Below are positions 15,423-27,887 of a stretch of 64,000 nt of DNA, piece by piece. A model generated the notes under the pieces. The model was given only the letters and a program-made list of their open reading frames with translations, had not been told where the DNA came from and searched no databases. The position numbers and the translations under genes are program-made. Origin of the DNA: Thalassococcus profundi (GTDB taxonomy: Bacteria; Pseudomonadota; Alphaproteobacteria; Rhodobacterales; Rhodobacteraceae); assembly GCF_003344785.1 (NCBI RefSeq), contig NZ_QPMK01000005.1:124001-188000 (forward strand), read 5' to 3'. The first letter of the stretch is position 1. Every line of letters begins with the position of its first letter.

Positions 15423-15776
15423 TCACTCGGGTCGGCCGATCGCGGCCAGTTGCCGGGTCAGCGCGGCGGGGTCGACCGGTTTGGCGACGACCGGCGCGTC
15501 GGACAGGTGGGCGGGAATCGTGTCCTTGGCATAGCCGGTCAGGAACAGCACCGAACAGCCGCGGTCGCGCAAGGTCTTGGCAAGGTCGAAAGACTTCGTG
15601 CCGGACAGGTTCACATCGAGAACTGCCGCATCCGGCAGTTCAATTTCGATCAGCCGGATCGCTTCGGGAATTGAACCGGCAGGCCCCAGCACCTGCCATC
15701 CGGCGTCACTGAGTTCCGCGGCCAGATCCATCGCGACGATGGCCTCGTCTTCCAGGACCAGAACCGATTTCCTCAT
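15423..15776 (-). CDS. Single-domain response regulator (FATGUY-like)
   Basis: A 117-residue receiver domain with no output domain. The acidic pair is in LVLEDEAIV, the phosphoacceptor Asp in AVLDVNLSG, the Thr in FLTGYAKDT and the Lys in VVAKPV. The FLTGY...P...P...KP spacing resembles FATGUY receivers, which act downstream of HWE/HisKA2 kinases in alphaproteobacterial stress signalling. Its ATG overlaps the stop of the large kinase gene by four bases (ATGA), so kinase and regulator are translationally coupled and very likely a cognate pair. The output must be a separate protein outside this unit. Confidence 0.92.
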   Translation of the reverse strand: MRKSVLVLEDEAIVAMDLAAELSDAGWQVLGPAGSIPEAIRLIEIELPDAAVLDVNLSGTKSFDLAKTLRDRGCSVLFLTGYAKDTIPAHLSDAPVVAKPVDPAALTRQLAAIGRPE

Positions 15777-18700
15777 CCGTCGTCTCCAGAGCGCAACTTG
15801 CAGTCGATTTCGGCAACCAGACCGTCGCGGGCATAGTCGATCCGCGACGCGCCGCCAAGGCTGTGCGTCAACGAGTCGGCGATCAGAACGGTTCCGAACC
15901 CGGTCCGCTCGGGCGGCTCGACCGGCGGGCCGCCGATCTCGCGCCACACCAGGTGCAGGGCGGGAACATCGTCGAGCGTGGTGCGGCTCCAGTCGATTTC
16001 GACCCGTCCGCCTTCACGGGACAGCGCGCCGTATTTCGACGCGTTGCTGGCCAGTTCGTGCAGGACGAGGCCCAGCCCGTGGGCGACGCTCGGACCCAGC
16101 TGGATGCGCGGCCCCCGGGCCTGCAACTGGCGGTCGGTTTCAGAGGCATAGGGGCCGACCTGCGAGACGACCAGATCGGCCACCGTGCCTTCGCGGTCGT
16201 CGAGATTGATCAAGAGGTCGTGCGCGCGAGAGATGGCGCGAATCCGTCCCATGAAACTTTGCTTGAAGCTTTCCATGTCGGGCGCGTGGCGGATCGTCTG
16301 CGACGCGATCGACTGGATGGTCGCAAGCGAATTCTTGACCCGGTGGTTGAGTTCGCTGGTCAGCAGGTCGCGGCGCGCCTCCTTTTCCACGTCATCGGTC
16401 ACGTCGAAGTTGATGCCGATCATGGATTCCGGTTCGCGGCTGCGGTTGTAGATGATGCGGCCCTTGCCGACGAGCACGCGCTCTTCGCCGTCGCCGCGCC
16501 GGATGTGAAACTGGCTGTCGAAAAGCGCACCGGTGTCCATCGCGGTTTCGAGTTCCCGGACCACGCGATCGCGATCCTCGTCCAGGATGTAGCTTGCGAA
16601 AGTGGCCAGCGACGGCTTTGCCTCGCGCGGGGCGCCCAGAAGATCGAACATGTTGGGCGTCCAGACCGAGACGTCGTCCCGCACCTCCCATTGCCAGGCA
16701 CCGATGCCGGTGACCTCGTAGGTCAGTTCGAGTCGGGCGGCATAGGCCTGCATCCGCTGTTCGGCCTCGTGCCGTTCCGTGATGTCCTTCACCGTACCGA
16801 CCAGGCGCACGGGCTTGCCGTTCTCCAGCGTCACGGAGCCGTCGGCGCGCACCCAGATTGGCGCGCCGTCCGACTGCAGCACGCGGTACTCGGCGTTGTA
16901 CGTGCCATCGCCGCGGGGGTCGAAGGCGGCATCGACAGCGGCCTGGGTCGCCTCGCGATCGTCCGGGTGGATGCGATCCATGAACAGGTCGTAGTCGATC
17001 TCGCGATCGGCACCGACGTTCCAGATCTCGCGCATCCGGTCGTCCCAGACCAGCTTGCCGGTCTGCGGATAATAGACATGCACGCCGAGGTTGCCCGCAG
17101 CGAGCGCAGCAGCGAGCCGCTCGCGGCTTTCGCGCAGGTCGAGTTCCGCCCGCTTGCGCCGGGTGACGTCGAAGAAGGTGATGATGCAGCCGTCAAGCCG
17201 GTCGTCGATGCGGCGATAGGGCCGCACTCGCACCTGGTAGAATACTCCGGTCGCGGGGTTGGCGATCTCGCGGTCGACGACCTGCAACGTCTGCTCGACG
17301 CGGGTCACGTCATCGGCAAGCTCCGGATAGTCGATCTGCCACTTCAGATCGGTGACCTTGCGGCCGATATCGCGGTCGTCGATATGCAGGATGTTCTGCG
17401 CCGTGCGCGTGAACCGCCGCACGATCAGACCCTGGGCCAGGATCAGCTTGGCGATATCGGTGCTGTCGAGCACGTTCTTGAGGTCGGAATTCACCTCGTT
17501 GAGCTGGGAGTTGTTCTCGGACAGCTCGGCGTTGATCGTCTCGAGCTCCTCGTTGATGGATTGCAGCTCCTCGCGCGAGGTTTCGAGTTCCTCGTTCGAG
17601 CTCTGCAACTCCTCGTTCATCGACAGCAGCTCTTCGTTGGCGCTGCGCAACTCCTGCTCGGCGACCGCGTGCCCGGCTTCGGAGGCGTTGAGACGCCGGC
17701 GCACCCGGGCAAGCTCTTCCTCAGCACTGTGCAGGGACAGCGCCGTTTCCGGAGAGGGCTGGCCCGGATCGGTCTCGGACCGCGCGACGGGCTGGATCAC
17801 GACCATCATGTCGCCGTCGGCAAACGGCAGCGATTCGACGGTGATCCGCGCCGTGGGCGCGGCGCCCTCGATCGTCAGGGACACGGTTTCGAAAGCCGTG
17901 CCGCCATCCTCGCGCACCCGGGCCAGAAGCGGCCGAAGCACCGACCTGATTTCGCGCGACAGCAGGTCTTCGAGCCGTGCCGAAAGCGCGCCCTTCGCCG
18001 GGCGCACATAGGGCCCGAGCGTGCCCGAAAGATAGCTGACCTCGTCGGACGCGTTGACGACGAAATAGGGCGGCGCGTGCCGGTTGAGGAAATACTGGTC
18101 GATCTGCGTTTCGTAATCCGGCGTGACCGACGGCGCCTCGAACAGGGCGGTGTCGGTGGTGTCGATATGCCTCTGGGGCATCGTGCTTTGCGGCGGGCGG
18201 CGACCGGTCAGGGCCGAGAAACCGACCGACACCGTGTCGTTGCGCCGGTAGATCCGGTGATCGCGCGACACGACGTTGAAATAGCTGCCCCGGCTTTCCA
18301 CGGATTCCGACGGTCCCAGAAACAGGAAGCCCGAATTGCACAGCGCGTAGTGGAACCGCGGCATCACCGCACCCTGCCCTTCGGTGTTGAGATAGATCAG
18401 CAGATTGCGGCAAGAGATGATGTCGATGCGCGAGAACGGCGGGTCGCGCAGCAGGTTGTGCGGCGCGAAGGCGACCCGTTCGCGCAGCCGCGAGGCGACC
18501 TGGTAATGGCCCTTATGCGCGATGAAATAGCGCTTGATCAGGTCTTCCGGCACGCTTTCAAGGGTGGCGTCGCTATACATGGCCGACCGGGCATGGCGCA
18601 GGCTGTTGAGATCGATATCCGTGCCGAAGATCTGCAATTCGCGCCGGTCGTCGGCCTGGCGCAGCGCCTCCGAGAACAGGATGCCGATGGAATAGGCCTC

Positions 18701-19651
18701 TTCCCCGGTCGAACAGCCGGGCACCCAGATTCGGAATCTGTTCTGGTCGCGCGCCAGCAGCGGTTCGATGACGTGTTCGGTCAGCGCCGCAAAGGCCTTG
18801 GGGTCGCGGAAGAACCGCGTGACACCGATCAGGAAGTCTTGCAGCAACCGGGTGCGTTCGTCCGCGTCGCGCCTGAGCAGCGACAGGTAGCTTTCGATGT
18901 CGGTCTGAAGCTGCAGCATCATCCGCCGCTCGATCCGCCGCACCATAGTGCCGGGCTTGTAATTCGAAAAGTCCTGGCCGTCCTGGGTGTTCAACAGGTC
19001 GATCACGTCCGGGAGCCGGGATTCGATCGCGGCAAAGACATGGTCCTTGCGGTGGCCGTTGCGGACCTCGTCGCGGTGGTTCAGCATCGAGATGAGGTTC
19101 GCCGGCACATCGCCAGGGGCCAGCCGCGCATCGACCACACCGGTCGCGGCGGCGCTGTCGGGCATGCCGGGAAAACGGGCCGAGGCGGCTTCCTGCACCA
19201 GCGCGATGCCCCCCGCGGCCTTGATCGCCTTCAGGCCCATCGTGCCGTCTGTGCCTGTCCCCGACAGGATCACGCAGCTCGCCATTTCGCCGTAGGCCCG
19301 CGCGAGCGAGGTCAGGAAGCCGTCGATGGGGGTGCGCACACCCACGGTATTGTCGCGCGGCTTCAGGCGGAACCGGCCGCTCATGATTTCGAGCGCCTGG
19401 CCCGAGGGAATGACGAATATGGTGTCCGGCGCGACCGCCATCCCATGTTCGATCTTGCGGACCTGCAGAGCCGTATGCGACCCGAGCAGTTCGTGCATGA
19501 TCGACGGATGATCGGGCGACAGATGCTGCACGATGACGAAGGCAAGCCCGCAGCGCTCGGGAATTTCCGCGACCAGCTCGGCCAGTGCCTCGAGCCCGCC
19601 GGCGGATGCGCCAATCCCGACGATCCCTCTGATTTCAGTACGGTCTGTCAC
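15773..19651 (-). CDS. CheB-CheR-PAS-HWE histidine kinase fusion
   Basis: A 1292-residue cytoplasmic signalling protein. In order: a CheB methylesterase-like domain (about 8-190; Ser in GASAGG, His in VQHLSPDH, Asp in GTGTDGTMG), a CheR methyltransferase domain (about 215-480; SAM site [14 protein letters not shown]), a Glu/Asn-rich coiled coil (about 640-720; repeated NEELQS/NEELET units), three PAS-type domains (about 720-1080) and an HWE kinase domain (His in [15 protein letters not shown]-box [14 protein letters not shown] motif). CheB lacks a receiver domain. The GTG start at 19651 follows GGGAG at five bases; the open frame extends upstream but without support. Its partner regulator overlaps the 3' end. 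Confidence 0.93.
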
Positions 19652-20033
19652 GCAAACTCCCGTGGGATGAACCGCAAACCACAGTGCCACAGTTTGTCGG
19701 TCGCTTGAAGGAATACTGCACAACCCGGCAACGGGGACGCAAGCCGTAACAACAGGGTCTGACGCCCGGTCACGGCGACTCGCGGCTGCGCTCGGGGACC
19801 GCAAGGCCGCCTTGGGCGCCATGGGTCGCCGGACCGCTCATACCGGGCGGACCCGCTCGCCGTGCCTCAGCGCCGTCGCAGCGGCGCAGGACCGGTCCAC
19901 TCCGCGCTTTGCGTTCGGTTCGGCCCAACTGCCCAAGACGGTGTCTTGGAGACCGCGCATCGTTGCCGCCGATCCGCAGTCCCCGCAGTGAGCGCCGAAG
20001 AGGCCGCGGCGCGCACGGCCCCGGGCTTCGGGT
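19652..20033. other. Non-coding gap upstream of the CheB/CheR kinase
   Basis: About 380 bp with no supported gene. It must hold the kinase promoter. The only clear structure is a perfect palindrome CCAAGAC-GGT-GTCTTGG at 19933-19949, which could be an operator or a stem of a terminator for the solute-binding protein gene that ends at 20034 reading away from it; no T-tract follows. A weaker stem GCGCCG/CGGCGC lies near 19870. Confidence 0.45.
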
Positions 20034-21692: not shown

Positions 21693-21911
21693 GAGAGGAT
21701 CGTCCTGTTGGGAAAGGGAAGAAAGACCGCGCCTGGTCGGTCCGGGTTTTGACGATTAGCTAGACCTTGTCCCGACAGGGTCAACCGAAGGCCCTCCTAC
21801 CCTGAACAGGGGATAGATCGTCTCCCCCGGAACGCTAAGCATATCCGCGGCTGGGAAAAGTCCGGCCTGGGCCGGGTTTCCCGGGCCAAAGATTTGTCCG
21901 GGGACAGAAAA

Positions 21912-23072
21912 ATGACATTTAAAACACTTCTCGTTTTGACAACGATCGTGGCGCTCGGCGCTTGCTCCAGCAGCAGCAACGGTGGCGGTGGAGGCGGCGG
22001 CGGCGCGGGCGCCGGTGGTGGCGGAACCGGCGGAAGTGGCGGGTCTGGCGGCAGCGGTGGCTCTGGTGGCAGCGGAGGTTCTGGTGGCAGCGGAGGTTCT
22101 GGCGGCGGCGGTGGCACCGGCGGCAGCGGCAGCGGAAGCACGGCCGGCACCGGGTTCACCGGCACCGCCCAGATGAAGGGCGTCGTCATCCGGTCCGACA
22201 AGAACGTGCAGGTTTCTCTGCCCGTGCCTGGCGCGCCGACGATTTATGAATCTTCTCCCTACCCGTTCATCGACACCGGCCCCAACCAAACCACGGCACA
22301 GACGACCGCGGTGCTGGATCTGCAGAACGTAACGCTGGATTCCGTGACCGGAAATCAGTTCCAGGCGAACGGGACCGGATCGCTCAACGTGTCCGGCGCT
22401 CCGGGCGTCTCCAACGCCGACGGCAGCAGCTTCCTCGGTCAGGCGATTTTTGCGGATAACAATCCCAATCCCGCAACCGCGGGCGATCAGTTCTCCCTTC
22501 TGGCGGAGGACCTCGACAACGACGGCACCGATGACTTCTTCATGGTGCAGCTTGGCGCCGGAACGCTAAGTTCTTTCTCTGAAAGATCAACCTCCGGCGT
22601 CTTCTACGGCGGCACCTACACCCCCACCAGCGCATTGCAGTCCGGCGGCACGGCCACCTACACCCGAGTGGACGGTGCGCTTGTCAACACCGTGCGCGGC
22701 ACCAGCATCGCCGCAGGTCAGGATGTCGATGCGACCGTGCGCGCCGACGTGGCCCTGACCGCTGATTTCGACGCCGGCACCGTCAGTGGGCGTCTGAGCG
22801 GCGTCGGTCGCACCGGCGGCGCCGACGGGGTCGGCCTCAACACTGACATCGTGCTGTCGGGCGCCACGATCAACGGCAGCGACTTCACCGGCGGTACCGC
22901 CCGGATGGTCGAAGGTGGCACCTCCGTCTATTCCGGCGGGTCGTCCAGCTTCAACGGCTCGTTCATGGGGTCGGGCGGCGAAGCGGCCGCCGGGACCGCG
23001 CTGATCACCGGCAACATCCAGGGCCAGCAATCCGCCACGACCGCCGTCTTCGTGGGCGACAAGCAGCCATGA
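21912..23072 (+). CDS. Gly/Ser-linker surface lipoprotein, TbpB-like beta domain (probable Slam substrate)
   Basis: A 386-residue lipoprotein. The signal peptide ends in the lipobox ALGAC (Cys18), followed by SSSS-N and a Gly/Ser linker (about residues 23-80, eight GGS units). The rest is a Gly/Thr/Ser-rich beta domain without Cys whose C-terminal motif SFNGSFMGSGGEAAAGTAL resembles the conserved end of transferrin-binding-protein-like barrels. The ATG at 21912 is chosen because it puts the signal peptide first; a TTG at 21894 is in frame. The stop overlaps the start of a Slam-like gene (ATGA), so secretion partner and substrate are coupled. The ligand is unknown; transferrin itself is unlikely in a marine bacterium. 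Confidence 0.85.
   Translation: MTFKTLLVLTTIVALGACSSSSNGGGGGGGGAGAGGGGTGGSGGSGGSGGSGGSGGSGGSGGSGGGGGTGGSGSGSTAGTGFTGTAQMKGVVIRSDKNVQVSLPVPGAPTIYESSPYPFIDTGPNQTTAQTTAVLDLQNVTLDSVTGNQFQANGTGSLNVSGAPGVSNADGSSFLGQAIFADNNPNPATAGDQFSLLAEDLDNDGTDDFFMVQLGAGTLSSFSERSTSGVFYGGTYTPTSALQSGGTATYTRVDGALVNTVRGTSIAAGQDVDATVRADVALTADFDAGTVSGRLSGVGRTGGADGVGLNTDIVLSGATINGSDFTGGTARMVEGGTSVYSGGSSSFNGSFMGSGGEAAAGTALITGNIQGQQSATTAVFVGDKQP
22029..22100 (+). repeat. In-frame 9-bp tandem repeat encoding (GGS)8
   Basis: Eight consecutive 9-bp units each encode Gly-Gly-Ser. Units alternate between AGC/AGT and TCT serine codons, and an 18-bp block (CTGGTGGCAGCGGAGGTT) is repeated exactly at 22063-22080 and 22081-22098. 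Copy-number change would alter linker length by three residues per unit without breaking the frame. Confidence 0.9.
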
Positions 23073-24466
23073 TCCTGAACACACCGCGTCGGGCCCTTCG
23101 GGTCCGGCGTGGCGCCTTCAAGCTCCTGCGCCGGGGCCGCAACGTCTTGTGCGTCGCGGCCTCGTGCCTCTTGATCACATCCGGTGCTGCCGACGCGTTG
23201 AATGCCCGTCTGGCTAACGGCCAAGTGGTGACCGTCAACAGCTCGGCCGAATTGCAGACCACCGTGCGGCTGCTTCTGGCCAACGGCATGCGCGACGACG
23301 CCCGGCGGCTGGTGCGCGCCTTCGAGCCGGGCCATCCGGATCACGCGGTACGCGTGGCCTATGTCGACGGCCTTGCCGCCGCCGCAGAGGGCAACGACGT
23401 CGAAGCGGTGCGCATCTTCCGAAACATCCTTGCGCAGCGGCCCGAGCTCGACCTCGTGCGGGTGCAACTGGTGGGCGCGATGGCCCGGCTCGACCTCGAC
23501 GACGGTGCCCGCGCGCAGGCCGAACGGCTGGTGGCGGCGGGCGTCGACGACAAGCTCGACGGCCAGCTCTCAGGCCTTTTGCGCCAACTCGATGCAAACC
23601 GCCCCCTGACCTTCCGCGGCTACCTCTCCTTCCTGCCCAGCACCAACGTCAACAACGGCACCGACAGGTCGACCGTGGCCATCGGCCCGGTCGCCGGCGT
23701 CATTCCCGACGATGAACGCCGCAAGAGCGGCTTGGGCATCGCCCTTGGCGGCCAGGTCGCCTTTCGCCACCAGATGACGCCCAGCAACGCCTTCATCGCC
23801 GCGCTGGATGGCCGGGTCGAGCGCTTTCCCACCATCGACCGCACCAATACCACGGGCCAGTTGTCGCTGGGGGTCGAACACCGCCTGCCCCGCGGCAAGG
23901 CGTTGTTTCGACTGCTGACCGGCCTTGCGCATCAGGACGGCGACAGGACCTATCGCTACGACGGCCTCTCGATCGAGACGAACACCCGCATCGGCGATAG
24001 CTGGCGGCTCTATTTCGGGCCGGAATACCGGCAGGAGACCTATGACAGAACCCGCGGCGAGGATGGCAGCACCTTCGATCTGCCGGTGCAGCTGGACCGG
24101 TTCGCCGGACCCGACAGCTTTGTACGCTTCATCGCGGGGGCCACGTTCGGGCGCAAACGGCTCGACCGCTTTTCCTTCGACGAGGCACGGCTGGGCCTCG
24201 GGTATTACCGCGAGATGCCCATGGGGTTCTCGGGCTATGCCGAGGTGATCGCGGCGCGGCGGACCTATCACGACGATTTCCCCGGCATCAGCGACCCGCG
24301 CCGGGACGAGCGGCTGAGCTTTGGCGTGACCGTGACGAAGCGCGACCTCGTGGTCGCGGGATTTGCCCCGCAGGTGTCCCTGCGCGCGACGCGCACCAGG
24401 TCGAACGCAGCCTTCCACGACACCACAAAGACCGACCTCGACATCCGCCTGGTCAAGGAGTTCTGA
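23069..24466 (+). CDS. Slam-like outer-membrane protein (TPR plus DUF560 beta-barrel), type XI secretion
   Basis: A 465-residue outer-membrane protein. A basic n-region and signal peptide (cleavage near ADA-LN, residue 43) precede a periplasmic helical TPR domain (about 55-175; NDVEAVRIFRNILAQRPELDLVR is typical) and a C-terminal beta-barrel (about 180-465) with alternating strands and a terminal Phe (RLVKEF) as BAM signal. This order and length match Slam proteins (DUF560), which flip specific lipoproteins to the cell surface. The gene is coupled by ATGA overlap to the lipoprotein gene, the usual Slam-substrate arrangement. Identification is by architecture and context. Confidence 0.82.
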   Translation: MILNTPRRALRVRRGAFKLLRRGRNVLCVAASCLLITSGAADALNARLANGQVVTVNSSAELQTTVRLLLANGMRDDARRLVRAFEPGHPDHAVRVAYVDGLAAAAEGNDVEAVRIFRNILAQRPELDLVRVQLVGAMARLDLDDGARAQAERLVAAGVDDKLDGQLSGLLRQLDANRPLTFRGYLSFLPSTNVNNGTDRSTVAIGPVAGVIPDDERRKSGLGIALGGQVAFRHQMTPSNAFIAALDGRVERFPTIDRTNTTGQLSLGVEHRLPRGKALFRLLTGLAHQDGDRTYRYDGLSIETNTRIGDSWRLYFGPEYRQETYDRTRGEDGSTFDLPVQLDRFAGPDSFVRFIAGATFGRKRLDRFSFDEARLGLGYYREMPMGFSGYAEVIAARRTYHDDFPGISDPRRDERLSFGVTVTKRDLVVAGFAPQVSLRATRTRSNAAFHDTTKTDLDIRLVKEF

Positions 24467-24672: not shown

Positions 24673-26082
24673 TCAGGCGCCCGTGTGCTCCGTGGCAAGC
24701 CGTTCCAGGCGGGCGGCGACCTCCGGCAAGGGCGGACAACTGCGCCGGGTCTTCAGGCTGACATGCAGCAGGAACTGGTCGCAAGTGGCCAGCAGATCGC
24801 CTTCAGGATCGCGGCGCATCTCGTGGAAAAGGCGCAGCTTTTTACCTTCCCCCAGTGTCACGCACGTGGTGACCTGGACCGCATCGCCGGCGTGGCATTC
24901 GGCGAGATACTTGATCGTGGTCTCCGCCGTGAAATAGCTGTGCCCGGCGGCGATATAGTCCTCGTCCGCCCCGATTCTCCGCATCAACTCTTCGGATGCG
25001 TCCGAGAAGACCTGGCCGAAACGGCCTTCGTTCATATGTCCGTTCACATCCGTCCAGTCGACCGGCACGCGGCGCGTCTGTGTGACCATCGGCACCGAGG
25101 AAGACGGCGCTGTCCGCAGCGTCTTTTCATGCGCGATCAACAGCTTGCCGGCCGCCGTTCCCTGCTGCCGAAGCGCCCGCAGCAGCGCGACCAGGTTGTC
25201 GTCGCGCTGTCGTTCGAGCGCGCGGATATCCAGGTGACCGGACTGCGCGTCGGACTGACCGGCGATCAACTGCACCAGCTCGGGCGTGAAGTCGGGCACC
25301 TCTGTCAGACGGCTCCAGGGCCAGGCGAGGCAGGGACCGAACTGGTCGAGGAAATGCGCCATGCCCGCTTCGCCGCCCGCGATGCGGTAAGTTTCGAACA
25401 GACCCATCTGCGCCCACCTGAGGCCAAAGCCGTAACGGATTGAATTGTCGATCTCTTCCGTGGTCGCGATCCCGTCCTTCACGAGCCAGAGCGCCTCGCG
25501 CCAGACCGATTCCAGCAACCGGTCGGCAATATGCGCGTCGATCTCGGCCCGCACATGCAGCGGATACATGCCGATCCCGGTCAGAATAGTTTTCGCCTTT
25601 TCAACGATATCCGGCGCAACGTTCGACCCGGGCACAAGCTCGACCAGTGGCAGCAGGTAGACCGGGTTGAACGGATGCGCGACCATCAGGCGCGGCGCGA
25701 TCGCGCCTGCATTATCCTGCAATTCCGAGGGTTTGAAACCGGATGTTGAGGTTCCAATCAGCGCGTCCGGTCGGGCATGGACACCAATCTCGGCAAAGAC
25801 GCGGGTCTTGAGGTCGATGCGCTCCGGCACCGATTCCTGAACCCAGTCGGCCTCCGCGACCGCCTCGGCCAGGGTCTCGCAGAAGCGGATCTCGCCCCGC
25901 GGCGGCAGGGCGACGTCGTAGAGCATCGGCAAGGCCCGTGCGGCCCCCTCCATCACCGCGCCGATCTTGCGCGCGGCCTCGGGGTCGGGATCGTAGACCC
26001 GCACCCGCCATCCCATCAGCGCAAAGCGCGCCGCCCAGCCGCCGCCGATGACACCGCCGCCGATGATCGCTGCCGTTCTCAT
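24673..26082 (-). CDS. L-carnitine dehydrogenase fused to a hotdog thioesterase
   Basis: A 469-residue bifunctional enzyme. The N-terminal part is a 3-hydroxyacyl-CoA dehydrogenase-type NAD domain (IIGGGVIGGGWAARFALMG, then VQESVPERIDLK, GTSTSGFKPSEL and AHPFNPVYLLPLVELV) with its helical domain to about residue 320. The C-terminal part (about 330-460) is a 4HBT hotdog thioesterase (VDWTDVNGHMNEGRFGQVFSDASE). This fusion is known for carnitine 3-dehydrogenase joined to betainyl-CoA thioesterase: oxidation of L-carnitine to 3-dehydrocarnitine and release of glycine betaine. It is the last gene of a three-gene unit with overlapping stops and starts after the BKACE and lipocalin-like genes. Confidence 0.92.
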   Translation of the reverse strand: MRTAAIIGGGVIGGGWAARFALMGWRVRVYDPDPEAARKIGAVMEGAARALPMLYDVALPPRGEIRFCETLAEAVAEADWVQESVPERIDLKTRVFAEIGVHARPDALIGTSTSGFKPSELQDNAGAIAPRLMVAHPFNPVYLLPLVELVPGSNVAPDIVEKAKTILTGIGMYPLHVRAEIDAHIADRLLESVWREALWLVKDGIATTEEIDNSIRYGFGLRWAQMGLFETYRIAGGEAGMAHFLDQFGPCLAWPWSRLTEVPDFTPELVQLIAGQSDAQSGHLDIRALERQRDDNLVALLRALRQQGTAAGKLLIAHEKTLRTAPSSSVPMVTQTRRVPVDWTDVNGHMNEGRFGQVFSDASEELMRRIGADEDYIAAGHSYFTAETTIKYLAECHAGDAVQVTTCVTLGEGKKLRLFHEMRRDPEGDLLATCDQFLLHVSLKTRRSCPPLPEVAARLERLATEHTGA

Positions 26083-26549
26083 GACCCCATCCCGTTACCC
26101 AGGCCCGCCAGGCGCCGCAGGTCGTAGCCGTACCAGTCGAGGATCTCGCGTGCCGCGCGCAGCCGGTCCGGGCTGCTGCCAGCCTCGCGGTCCATGATCC
26201 AGACGCGGCCACCGTCCGGATCGCCCACCGCCGCCGTTCGGTCGCCGATGTCCAGCCAATGCACCCAGAGCCGTCCGTCCGCGTTGCTTAGCCGCCCCGG
26301 CGCGGTGAGAATGTACTCCACCCCCTGCACCGTCAGCCCGTCCGCCGTCCCGCGCACAACCGTCCCGGGCGCGATGCCCGCGCCCTGCACCACGATCCAG
26401 TCGCCCTGCAGCCGCGCCGCGGTCACGTCGGCCTGCGAGGCCACCGGCGCGGTCGGATTGCGCAGCGGCACCGGTGCCGCAACCGGATCCGCAGGACGCG
26501 CGCAGCCGGCGATGGCCAGCACCGCGACCAGGCAGCCGGCGCGGATCAC
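26079..26549 (-). CDS. Lipocalin-like lipoprotein in the carnitine operon
   Basis: A 156-residue protein beginning with a GTG at 26549 that overlaps the BKACE stop (GTGA) and ending in an ATGA overlap with the carnitine dehydrogenase. The signal peptide ends in a lipobox LAIAGC (Cys16). The mature part looks like a small beta-barrel of the lipocalin type (LQGDWIVVQGAG, GVEYILTAPGRLS, LWVHWLDIGDRTAAVGDPDGGRVWIMDR) ending in a helix (LRAAREILDWYGYDLRRL). Its tight position between two enzymes suggests a role in uptake or handling of carnitine-like molecules or membrane lipids. No function is proven by the sequence. Confidence 0.8.
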   Translation of the reverse strand: MIRAGCLVAVLAIAGCARPADPVAAPVPLRNPTAPVASQADVTAARLQGDWIVVQGAGIAPGTVVRGTADGLTVQGVEYILTAPGRLSNADGRLWVHWLDIGDRTAAVGDPDGGRVWIMDREAGSSPDRLRAAREILDWYGYDLRRLAGLGNGMGS

Positions 26550-27463
26550 AGCGCCACCGGCGCTTGCTTGACAAGGCCCAGCTTGGCCCGCACCTCGGCA
26601 GGGGTCATCACCCGCGCGCCCATGCGTTCGACGATCCCGACCGCGTGCTCCACCAACTCTGCATTGGTGGCCAGCTGACCCTTGCCCAGCCACAGGTTGT
26701 CCTCGAGCCCGACGCGTACATGCCCGCCCGCCAGCACCGCGGCGGCAGCATAGGCCATCTGGTGCCGCCCCAGCGAAAACGCCGAAAAGGTCCAGTCCGG
26801 CGGCACGTTGTTCACCATCGCCATGAAGGTGTCGAGGTCGTCCGGCGCGCCCCAGGGCACGCCCATGCAAAGCTGCACCAGCGCCGGCGCCTCCAGCACG
26901 CCCTCCTTCACCAGTTCCCTGGCAAACCAAAGGTGCCCGGTGTCGAAGGCCTCGATCTCGGGCTTGACGCCGAGATCGGTCATCATCCGGCCCATGGCGC
27001 GCAGCATGCCGGGCGTGTTGGTCATCACGTAGTCGGCCTCGGCAAAGTTCATCGTGCCACAGTCGAGCGTGCAGATCTCCGGCAGACACTCCGCGATATG
27101 CGCCACCCGTTCGGTGGCGCCGGCCATATCGGTGCCCGCCTGGGACACCGGCAAAGGCGACTCGACCGGGCCGAAGGTGATGTCGCCACCCATGCCCGCC
27201 GTGAGGTTCAGCACCACGTCGGTGCCGCTGTCGCGGATGCGGTCGGTGACCTCGCGAAACAGGTCGCGGCGGCGCGACGGCGCGCCGGTTTCGGGGTCGC
27301 GCACGTGGCAATGCACGATCGCCGCCCCCGCCTTGGCCGCGGCGATGGCACTCTCGGCAATCTGCCGCGGCGAGCGTGGCACGTGCGGGCTGCGGTCCTG
27401 CGTGGCACCCGACCCGGTCACGGCGCAGGTGATGAAGACGTCTTGGCTCATGGTCAGCGGCAT
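26546..27463 (-). CDS. BKACE, 3-dehydrocarnitine:acetyl-CoA cleavage enzyme (DUF849)
   Basis: A 305-residue zinc-dependent beta-keto acid cleavage enzyme. Metal-binding residues are the His pair in IVHCHVRDPETG and the Glu in RVGLEDNLWLGKG. Given the downstream carnitine dehydrogenase-thioesterase, the expected reaction is 3-dehydrocarnitine plus acetyl-CoA to betainyl-CoA plus acetoacetate. The start at 27463 is supported by GGAGA eight bases upstream; the open frame continues far upstream, and an ATG four codons downstream (MSQDVF) lacks a site. It is the first gene of the operon. Other beta-keto acids are possible substrates in this family, but context favours dehydrocarnitine. Confidence 0.92.
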   Translation of the reverse strand: MPLTMSQDVFITCAVTGSGATQDRSPHVPRSPRQIAESAIAAAKAGAAIVHCHVRDPETGAPSRRRDLFREVTDRIRDSGTDVVLNLTAGMGGDITFGPVESPLPVSQAGTDMAGATERVAHIAECLPEICTLDCGTMNFAEADYVMTNTPGMLRAMGRMMTDLGVKPEIEAFDTGHLWFARELVKEGVLEAPALVQLCMGVPWGAPDDLDTFMAMVNNVPPDWTFSAFSLGRHQMAYAAAAVLAGGHVRVGLEDNLWLGKGQLATNAELVEHAVGIVERMGARVMTPAEVRAKLGLVKQAPVAL

Positions 27464-27647
27464 GGCGGCGTTCTCCGGGGTCGACGCGGCTTCGACGCCG
27501 GTCATGCGCGCGACCCTGCCGCATGGCCAGCGTCCTGGCAAGACGCGACCGCCCGCGCGACCTCCGCCGTCGAAAATGGCCCCGAACCCGGGCCATTGCC
27601 GCCGCAATCTCCGGGCATCTTCGGGGGCAGACATCAAGGAGTCGCCG

Positions 27648-27887
27648 ATGTGGCCCTTTCCCCAGCCCGGACCCGGGCAAAGCCGCAACGCACGGCGCAA
27701 GCGCCTCTTCGAACTGCACCGCCAGGCGCAGGTGCAGGCGATGTGCGCCGAAACCGCTCCGCAGCTTCTGGCCGAGGCTGAAAATCAGTTCCAGCGCCGC
27801 GCCATCGCGTCGCTGCGCCCGGAGCCGTCACGACGCGCCGCGGAACCCCGTAGCCACGACGAATTTCTCGGAACTGTCGGAGCGTGA
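27648..27887 (+). CDS. Small basic hypothetical protein overlapping rlmE
   Basis: A 79-codon frame starting at an ATG with AAGGAG six bases upstream, one of the best ribosome sites in the region. The product ([26 protein letters not shown]...) is basic at the N-terminus and has a long helix-like middle ([28 protein letters not shown]). I recognise no family. Its last 60 bases overlap the 3' end of rlmE on the other strand. The ribosome site argues that it is translated; the overlap and lack of homology knowledge keep confidence low. Confidence 0.42.

Follow-up and report, generated by a model that had tools for sequence, protein, structure and literature searches.

The 64,000-nucleotide stretch of Thalassococcus profundi DNA analysed here, which we call the window, holds a lipoprotein gene directly followed by a gene for a Slam-like outer-membrane barrel. 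The original prediction read the two as a stand-alone type XI secretion unit, and the question raised by this locus is which kind of system the pair belongs to and what might control it.

A lipoprotein gene overlapping a Slam gene

Both open reading frames were found where they had been placed, and the Slam frame ends in Phe as described:

21912 to 23072, + strand: surface lipoprotein, the predicted cargo of a type 11 secretion system (T11SS); 386 aa, sequence MTFKTLLVLTTIVALGAC, consisting of a lipobox signal peptide, a Gly/Ser linker and a folded region
23069 to 24466, + strand: Slam/T11SS outer-membrane protein (SlipAM, PF04575); 465 aa, with predicted N-terminal TPR-like helices, a predicted C-terminal beta-barrel and a final Phe

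The stop of the cargo gene and the start of the Slam gene share four bases (ATGA), in agreement with the overlap noted earlier, and the third codon position is the GC-richest in both frames (0.78 in the cargo and 0.86 in the Slam). The foreseen DUF560/Slam match of the second protein was obtained, with PF04575 (SlipAM, formerly DUF560) scoring 64 bits at an E-value of 2.1e-17 over a curated cut-off of 22, while the TPR matches were sub-threshold (TPR_Slam, 25.2 bits; TPR_19, 22.1 bits). In the structural model, which is of low confidence (mean pLDDT 55.6) and, like the cargo model, was built on a shallow alignment drawn from the window and a single locus, consecutive helices span residues 59-175 and about 14 long beta-strands lie within residues 180-462, as would suit a Slam. 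A Foldseek search with this weak model returned a PelBC entry at the top, followed by assorted generic barrels including BcsC. Together with the finding that PF04575 also took in PgaA/HmsH (PMC8406197), this ranking would suit an exporter of polysaccharide, or another TPR-barrel exporter like PgaA, PelB or BcsC, instead of a lipoprotein translocon. We regard this alternative as hardly probable at all, given the low confidence of the model behind the ranking, sequence matches that are to SlipAM and sub-threshold TPR_Slam, the lack of polysaccharide-synthesis genes among the immediate neighbours tested, and the lipoprotein partner adjacent to the barrel in all four relatives.

Next to the pair lie genes for an SBP_bac_5 protein, a 3HCDH/4HBT fusion and a BKACE. 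As had been claimed, no TonB receptor lies near the pair; the three receptor matches in the genome are all on other contigs, with none on contig C35. The missing TonB gene is unremarkable, because its absence is normal for the marine T11SS loci of this group (PMC12282271). None of the glyoxalase, DUF1194 and ThyX marker genes was found beside the window pair either. On the opposite strand (24673-27719, -), the 3-hydroxyacyl-CoA dehydrogenase/thioesterase fusion is followed by the BKACE enzyme, an arrangement that suggests carnitine breakdown; these genes were rejected as members of the unit, since they run on the other strand and are not conserved beside the pair. Further upstream, a large CheB-CheR-PAS-HWE histidine kinase fusion of 1349 aa is encoded at 15773-19822 (-). 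It was likewise rejected as the regulator of the pair, as it has no homologue at the loci of the relatives.

The lipoprotein as a predicted cargo

The lipobox LGAC occupies residues 15-18 of the cargo, with Cys18 as the predicted lipidation site by inspection, and this Cys is conserved in the four relatives. The described lipoprotein with a Gly/Ser linker is thus borne out, and two segments of its gene are considered below:

21978 to 22139, + strand: DNA of the Gly/Ser-rich linker, residues 23-76, with 38 Gly and 11 Ser among 54 residues
22509 to 22535, + strand: DNA for the acidic, EF-hand-loop-like motif D200-x-D-x-D-xxx-D208, conserved in all four cargo relatives

Judged by its composition, the linker could plausibly serve as a spacer holding the barrel off the outer membrane. 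Comparable though shorter Gly-rich runs were seen in a number of the family's other T11SS lipoproteins. The D200-D208 motif, EDLDNDGTDDFF, resembles a calcium-binding loop, and its DFF-ended form is absent from the other T11SS lipoproteins listed.

The folded-looking region covers approximately residues 77-386 and includes the TbpB_B_D-like C-terminal part. The TbpB-like motif that had been reported there is real, but it stays under the Pfam cut-off: in the genome search the window cargo reached 24.4 bits where 26 are required, and plain hmmscan of the cargo listed no TbpB_B_D. Two of its three relatives gave similar scores of 25.4 and 24.5 bits against the same cut-off. In NCBIfam, the Sagittula cargo matched slam_lipo ('Slam-dependent surface lipoprotein') with an E-value of 1.2e-9, below the cut-off of the model. 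The AlphaFold2 model of the cargo, made from a two-sequence alignment, reached a pLDDT of 33.8 and is too poor to show an 8-stranded barrel. When the full cargo alignment was searched against PDB profiles, only the Gly/Ser linker found matches, mostly engineered fusions, and after removal of the linker there were no matches. A scan of genome contigs with the single cargo protein gave no match, with the cargo alignment it gave Sagittula as the sole match, and a scan of viral contigs for the cargo gave none.

Relatives and distribution of the pair

The cargo-Slam pair was kept in three other genomes, with identities across the pair of 60/64, 51/63 and 37/41 %. These closest relatives come from two Roseobacteraceae-type genomes and one Shinella plasmid. 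Together with its counterparts from Sagittula salina (G290) and G176, the window Slam forms a tight clade with full support, and the next nearest member found was the Slam of the Shinella plasmid, which is about 41-42 % identical and annotated as 'surface lipoprotein assembly modifier'. At all four loci the same type of cargo lies directly 5' of the Slam, with a lipobox, a Gly-rich linker and an invariant D-x-D-x-D-xxx-D. The window-type gene was absent from the four other genomes of the genus that were searched (at E-values up to 1e-10). Because the distribution is scattered and includes a plasmid of another order, it suggests horizontal transfer.

These comparisons bear on whether the lipoprotein is a Slam cargo at all. 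It might instead be periplasmic or reach the surface by another route, with the barrel exporting something else, for instance a DUF1194 protein, a candidate already put forward for marine T11SS; the sub-threshold TbpB_B_D score and the poor cargo model would fit, and classical cargo is rare beside cluster 3 T11SS genes (PMC12282271). We consider this very unlikely. The overlapping or adjacent pair is conserved across genera and even across an order boundary, the Sagittula cargo gave the slam_lipo match described above, and most Slams are preceded by a lipobox ORF, which was found just 5' of the gene at 38 of the 61 Slam loci of the family as against 1 of 185 control genes, counted by a crude rule with search windows that differ slightly between Slams and controls. 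Conservation of the pair, together with the matches to PF04575 and, near threshold, to TbpB_B_D, upholds the predicted Slam/T11SS and lipoprotein-cargo assignment, and the pair is a known kind of system, that of type 11 secretion.

A second PF04575 gene of the same genome is located on contig C77, and its product is 27 % identical to the window Slam over the matched part. At that locus (L088; G000:C77:145600-147500), inspection showed a lipoprotein 5' of the Slam and glyoxalase-like and DUF1194-like genes 3' of it. From these neighbour genes, the C77 locus is assigned to the conserved marine T11SS locus of PMC12282271.

A two-component system linked to the pair in relatives

In all three relatives, the locus comparison showed genes for a kinase and a response regulator adjoining the pair. 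The kinase is a membrane histidine kinase of about 700 aa with HisKA_3 and HATPase domains, and the regulator is of the receiver-GerE, NarL/LuxR type. No such genes were found adjacent to the pair in the window. The same kinase and regulator are present in the genome of the window on contig C45 (G000:C45), with no Slam beside them; the regulator is encoded at L128:7180-7815 on the minus strand, and this kinase shares 63 % identity with its G176 counterpart. To call the unit 'stand-alone' would mislead: the pair of the relatives is accompanied by a two-component system that is encoded elsewhere here, with a shared promoter palindrome as described below, and the window pair is probably not stand-alone.

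The kinase family was found in 15 of 296 genomes of the family by loose, first-look whole-genome searches in which some genes may have been missed, and in 9 of the 15 the kinase lies no more than about 3 kb from a PF04575 gene. For genomes of about 4 Mb with one to three Slams each, we estimate a chance linkage of about 0.2 % for one such gene, so that 9 of 15 is not attributable to chance. The Slams linked to these nine kinases belong to two separate clades of the tree. For five of the 15, including the kinase of the window genome, no Slam was detected within the flank read, so the association of this regulator family with T11SS loci is not an exclusive one. The kinase of G122 is cut by the contig end.

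Several kinase loci have features of their own. In G256 (L147:5645-7879) three tandem lipoproteins resembling cargo are encoded divergently from the kinase, and one of them weakly matches TbpB_B_D and slam_lipo; neither the flank read nor the PF04575 census gave a Slam for this genome, and a 1371-aa ORF that is TamB-like by inspection follows beyond the three lipoproteins. In G312 (L148:529-8004) the kinase gene and a 2491-aa ORF, which probably encodes a surface protein, point away from each other, and a weak match to the palindrome lies between the two. An in-frame TAG interrupts the kinase gene of G065 (L145:8287-10578), which has a strong palindrome upstream and no Slam in the flank read around it.

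The kinase begins with a short extracytoplasmic stretch, after which several membrane helices are predicted. In the kinase of one relative this stretch scores above the PDZ_6 cut-off (29.7 against 27; L146:8122-8691), and it is shortened in the window-type kinases by inspection, the N-termini at L053, L108 and L145 having also been compared. Among the NCBIfam equivalogs listed for the kinase and the regulator, none reached its cut-off.

A palindrome shared by the cargo and kinase promoters

Comparison of promoters gave CCCTGAACAGGG as the one strong element common to the cargo promoters and the remote kinase promoter:

21800 to 21811, no strand assigned: palindrome CCCTGAACAGGG (pattern CCCTGWWCAGGG, 12 bp), the proposed operator of a trans-encoded NarL-type regulator, 101 bp upstream of the cargo ATG

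A second copy is located 62 bp upstream of the ATG of the C45 kinase. In the cargo promoters of the relatives, the site is exact in Shinella and has one mismatch in Sagittula and two in G176 (L059). At the other kinase-linked loci it is exact or has one mismatch, and it lies in the intergenic region between kinase and cargo or in the promoter of either. By comparison, Slam loci without the kinase contain 15 sites at up to one mismatch in 778,567 bases. A strong palindrome (22.8 bits) was seen upstream of a cargo-Slam pair without a kinase in the flank at L082:6343, an arrangement like that of the window, and genome G257 also has the palindrome and no local kinase.

To avoid circularity, a site matrix was trained on ten sites that all come from other genomes. 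The top match in the 64-kb window was the cargo promoter (20.7 bits at 21796), with the next at 12.2, and around the C45 kinase it was the kinase promoter (24.8 bits), with the next at 7.3. The locus of the C77 paralogue gave 6.7 bits at best. In 2 Mb of random sequence, the best matrix score was 20.6, reached once, which is close to the 20.7 of the window; the case for the window site therefore rests on its position, conservation and pairing, and not on score alone.

That a palindrome of this strength arises once in 2 Mb of random sequence would also agree with an ordinary Slam-lipoprotein pair under no special regulation, in which the palindrome is due to chance or is unrelated, for instance the operator of a global regulator. 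This appears unlikely to us. In the 4.78 Mb genome the exact pattern occurs at only three places, the cargo promoter, the C45 kinase promoter and the interior of one ORF, and two of the three are thus exactly the promoters predicted from linkage elsewhere, whereas many sites would be expected of a global regulator. Moreover, the palindrome recurs in the cargo promoters of relatives and in many kinase promoters. The third copy (C5:31051) was set aside as a further target and attributed to chance, as it lies inside an 894-aa ORF. This ORF (L154:7205-9889, contig C5) is P-loop ATPase-like and stands near a 928-aa helicase-like ORF, in what is possibly a defence locus.

A model for trans control

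We consider it likely that the window pair forms a T11SS unit for a surface lipoprotein and that a dedicated two-component system controls it in trans via the shared palindrome. By analogy with the family, the lipoprotein would be exported by Sec, lipidated at Cys18 and carried to the outer membrane, where the Slam barrel encoded directly downstream would move it to the cell surface, and cargo and Slam are probably co-translated. The NarL/LuxR-type regulator of C45 and its membrane sensor kinase would act in trans through CCCTGWWCAGGG, and the copy before the kinase gene would allow autoregulation, probably of the kinase operon. The comparisons show the gene pair, its family match, the linkage of kinase and regulator to the pair in relatives and the palindrome common to both promoters; from these we infer surface display of the lipoprotein and binding of the regulator to the palindrome, which would either activate or repress transcription.

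PDZ domains bind the C-termini of proteins, so the kinase might sense unassembled barrel or cargo, though this is speculation. A closed feedback circuit seems distinctly unlikely, in which the extracytoplasmic domain of the kinase would sense unfolded Slam C-termini, cargo that has not been translocated, or a ligand state that the lipoprotein reports, and would reset transcription of the T11SS pair and the kinase via the palindrome. If true, surface lipoproteins would have in this circuit a sensor dedicated to the quality of their secretion and portable on plasmids.

For the preferred reading, control in trans through the palindrome, the novel part is the regulatory circuit, since Slam-lipoprotein pairs as such are known and catalogues of marine T11SS exist. 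The candidate dedicated regulator and its defined 12-bp putative operator provide a direct genetic handle. The operator would predict the timing of surface-lipoprotein production and point to the regulon, and with its help T11SS cargo could be traced even where the regulator or the Slam is encoded at a distance. Neither two-component systems nor histidine kinases or response regulators come up in the main text of a 2025 survey of T11SS (PMC12282271), and among the titles and abstracts listed by full-text searches of open-access literature we found no paper tying two-component systems to Slam in these bacteria. The survey reports experimentally verified T11SS cargo for the animal-associated cluster 1 only (PMC12282271), so that for the marine members neither cargo nor ligand nor regulation has been demonstrated.

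Comparison with known systems

Translocation of a lipoprotein by Slam is established for Neisseria Slam1 with TbpB (PMC9090332). Like Neisseria Slam1/TbpB and Slam2 of T11SS cluster 1A (PMC9090332, PMC8406197), the window pair combines a SlipAM/DUF560 barrel with an adjacent lipidated, TbpB_B_D-like cargo. Unlike them, it has no adjacent TonB receptor or iron genes, its cargo contains one weak TbpB_B_D-like region and a long Gly/Ser linker, and a two-component system with a shared operator would take the place of the iron-uptake neighbourhood.

The marine T11SS locus of Roseobacteraceae and Rhodobacteraceae comprises a lipoprotein, a T11SS outer-membrane protein, a lactoylglutathione lyase, a DUF1194 protein and ThyX (PMC12282271). 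The window pair comes from the same bacterial group and has its lipoprotein directly 5' of the T11SS outer-membrane protein as well, but its Slam belongs to a different well-supported clade, lacks the marker neighbours and is associated with the kinase and regulator.

The two-component system itself resembles NarL/LuxR-type systems with UhpB/NarX-like kinases in pairing a HisKA_3/HATPase kinase with a receiver-GerE regulator. In contrast to UhpB/NarX-like kinases, it is distinguished by its association with surface-lipoprotein loci and by a kinase N-terminus that combines a short extracytoplasmic segment, a PDZ domain in at least one case, with several membrane helices by prediction.
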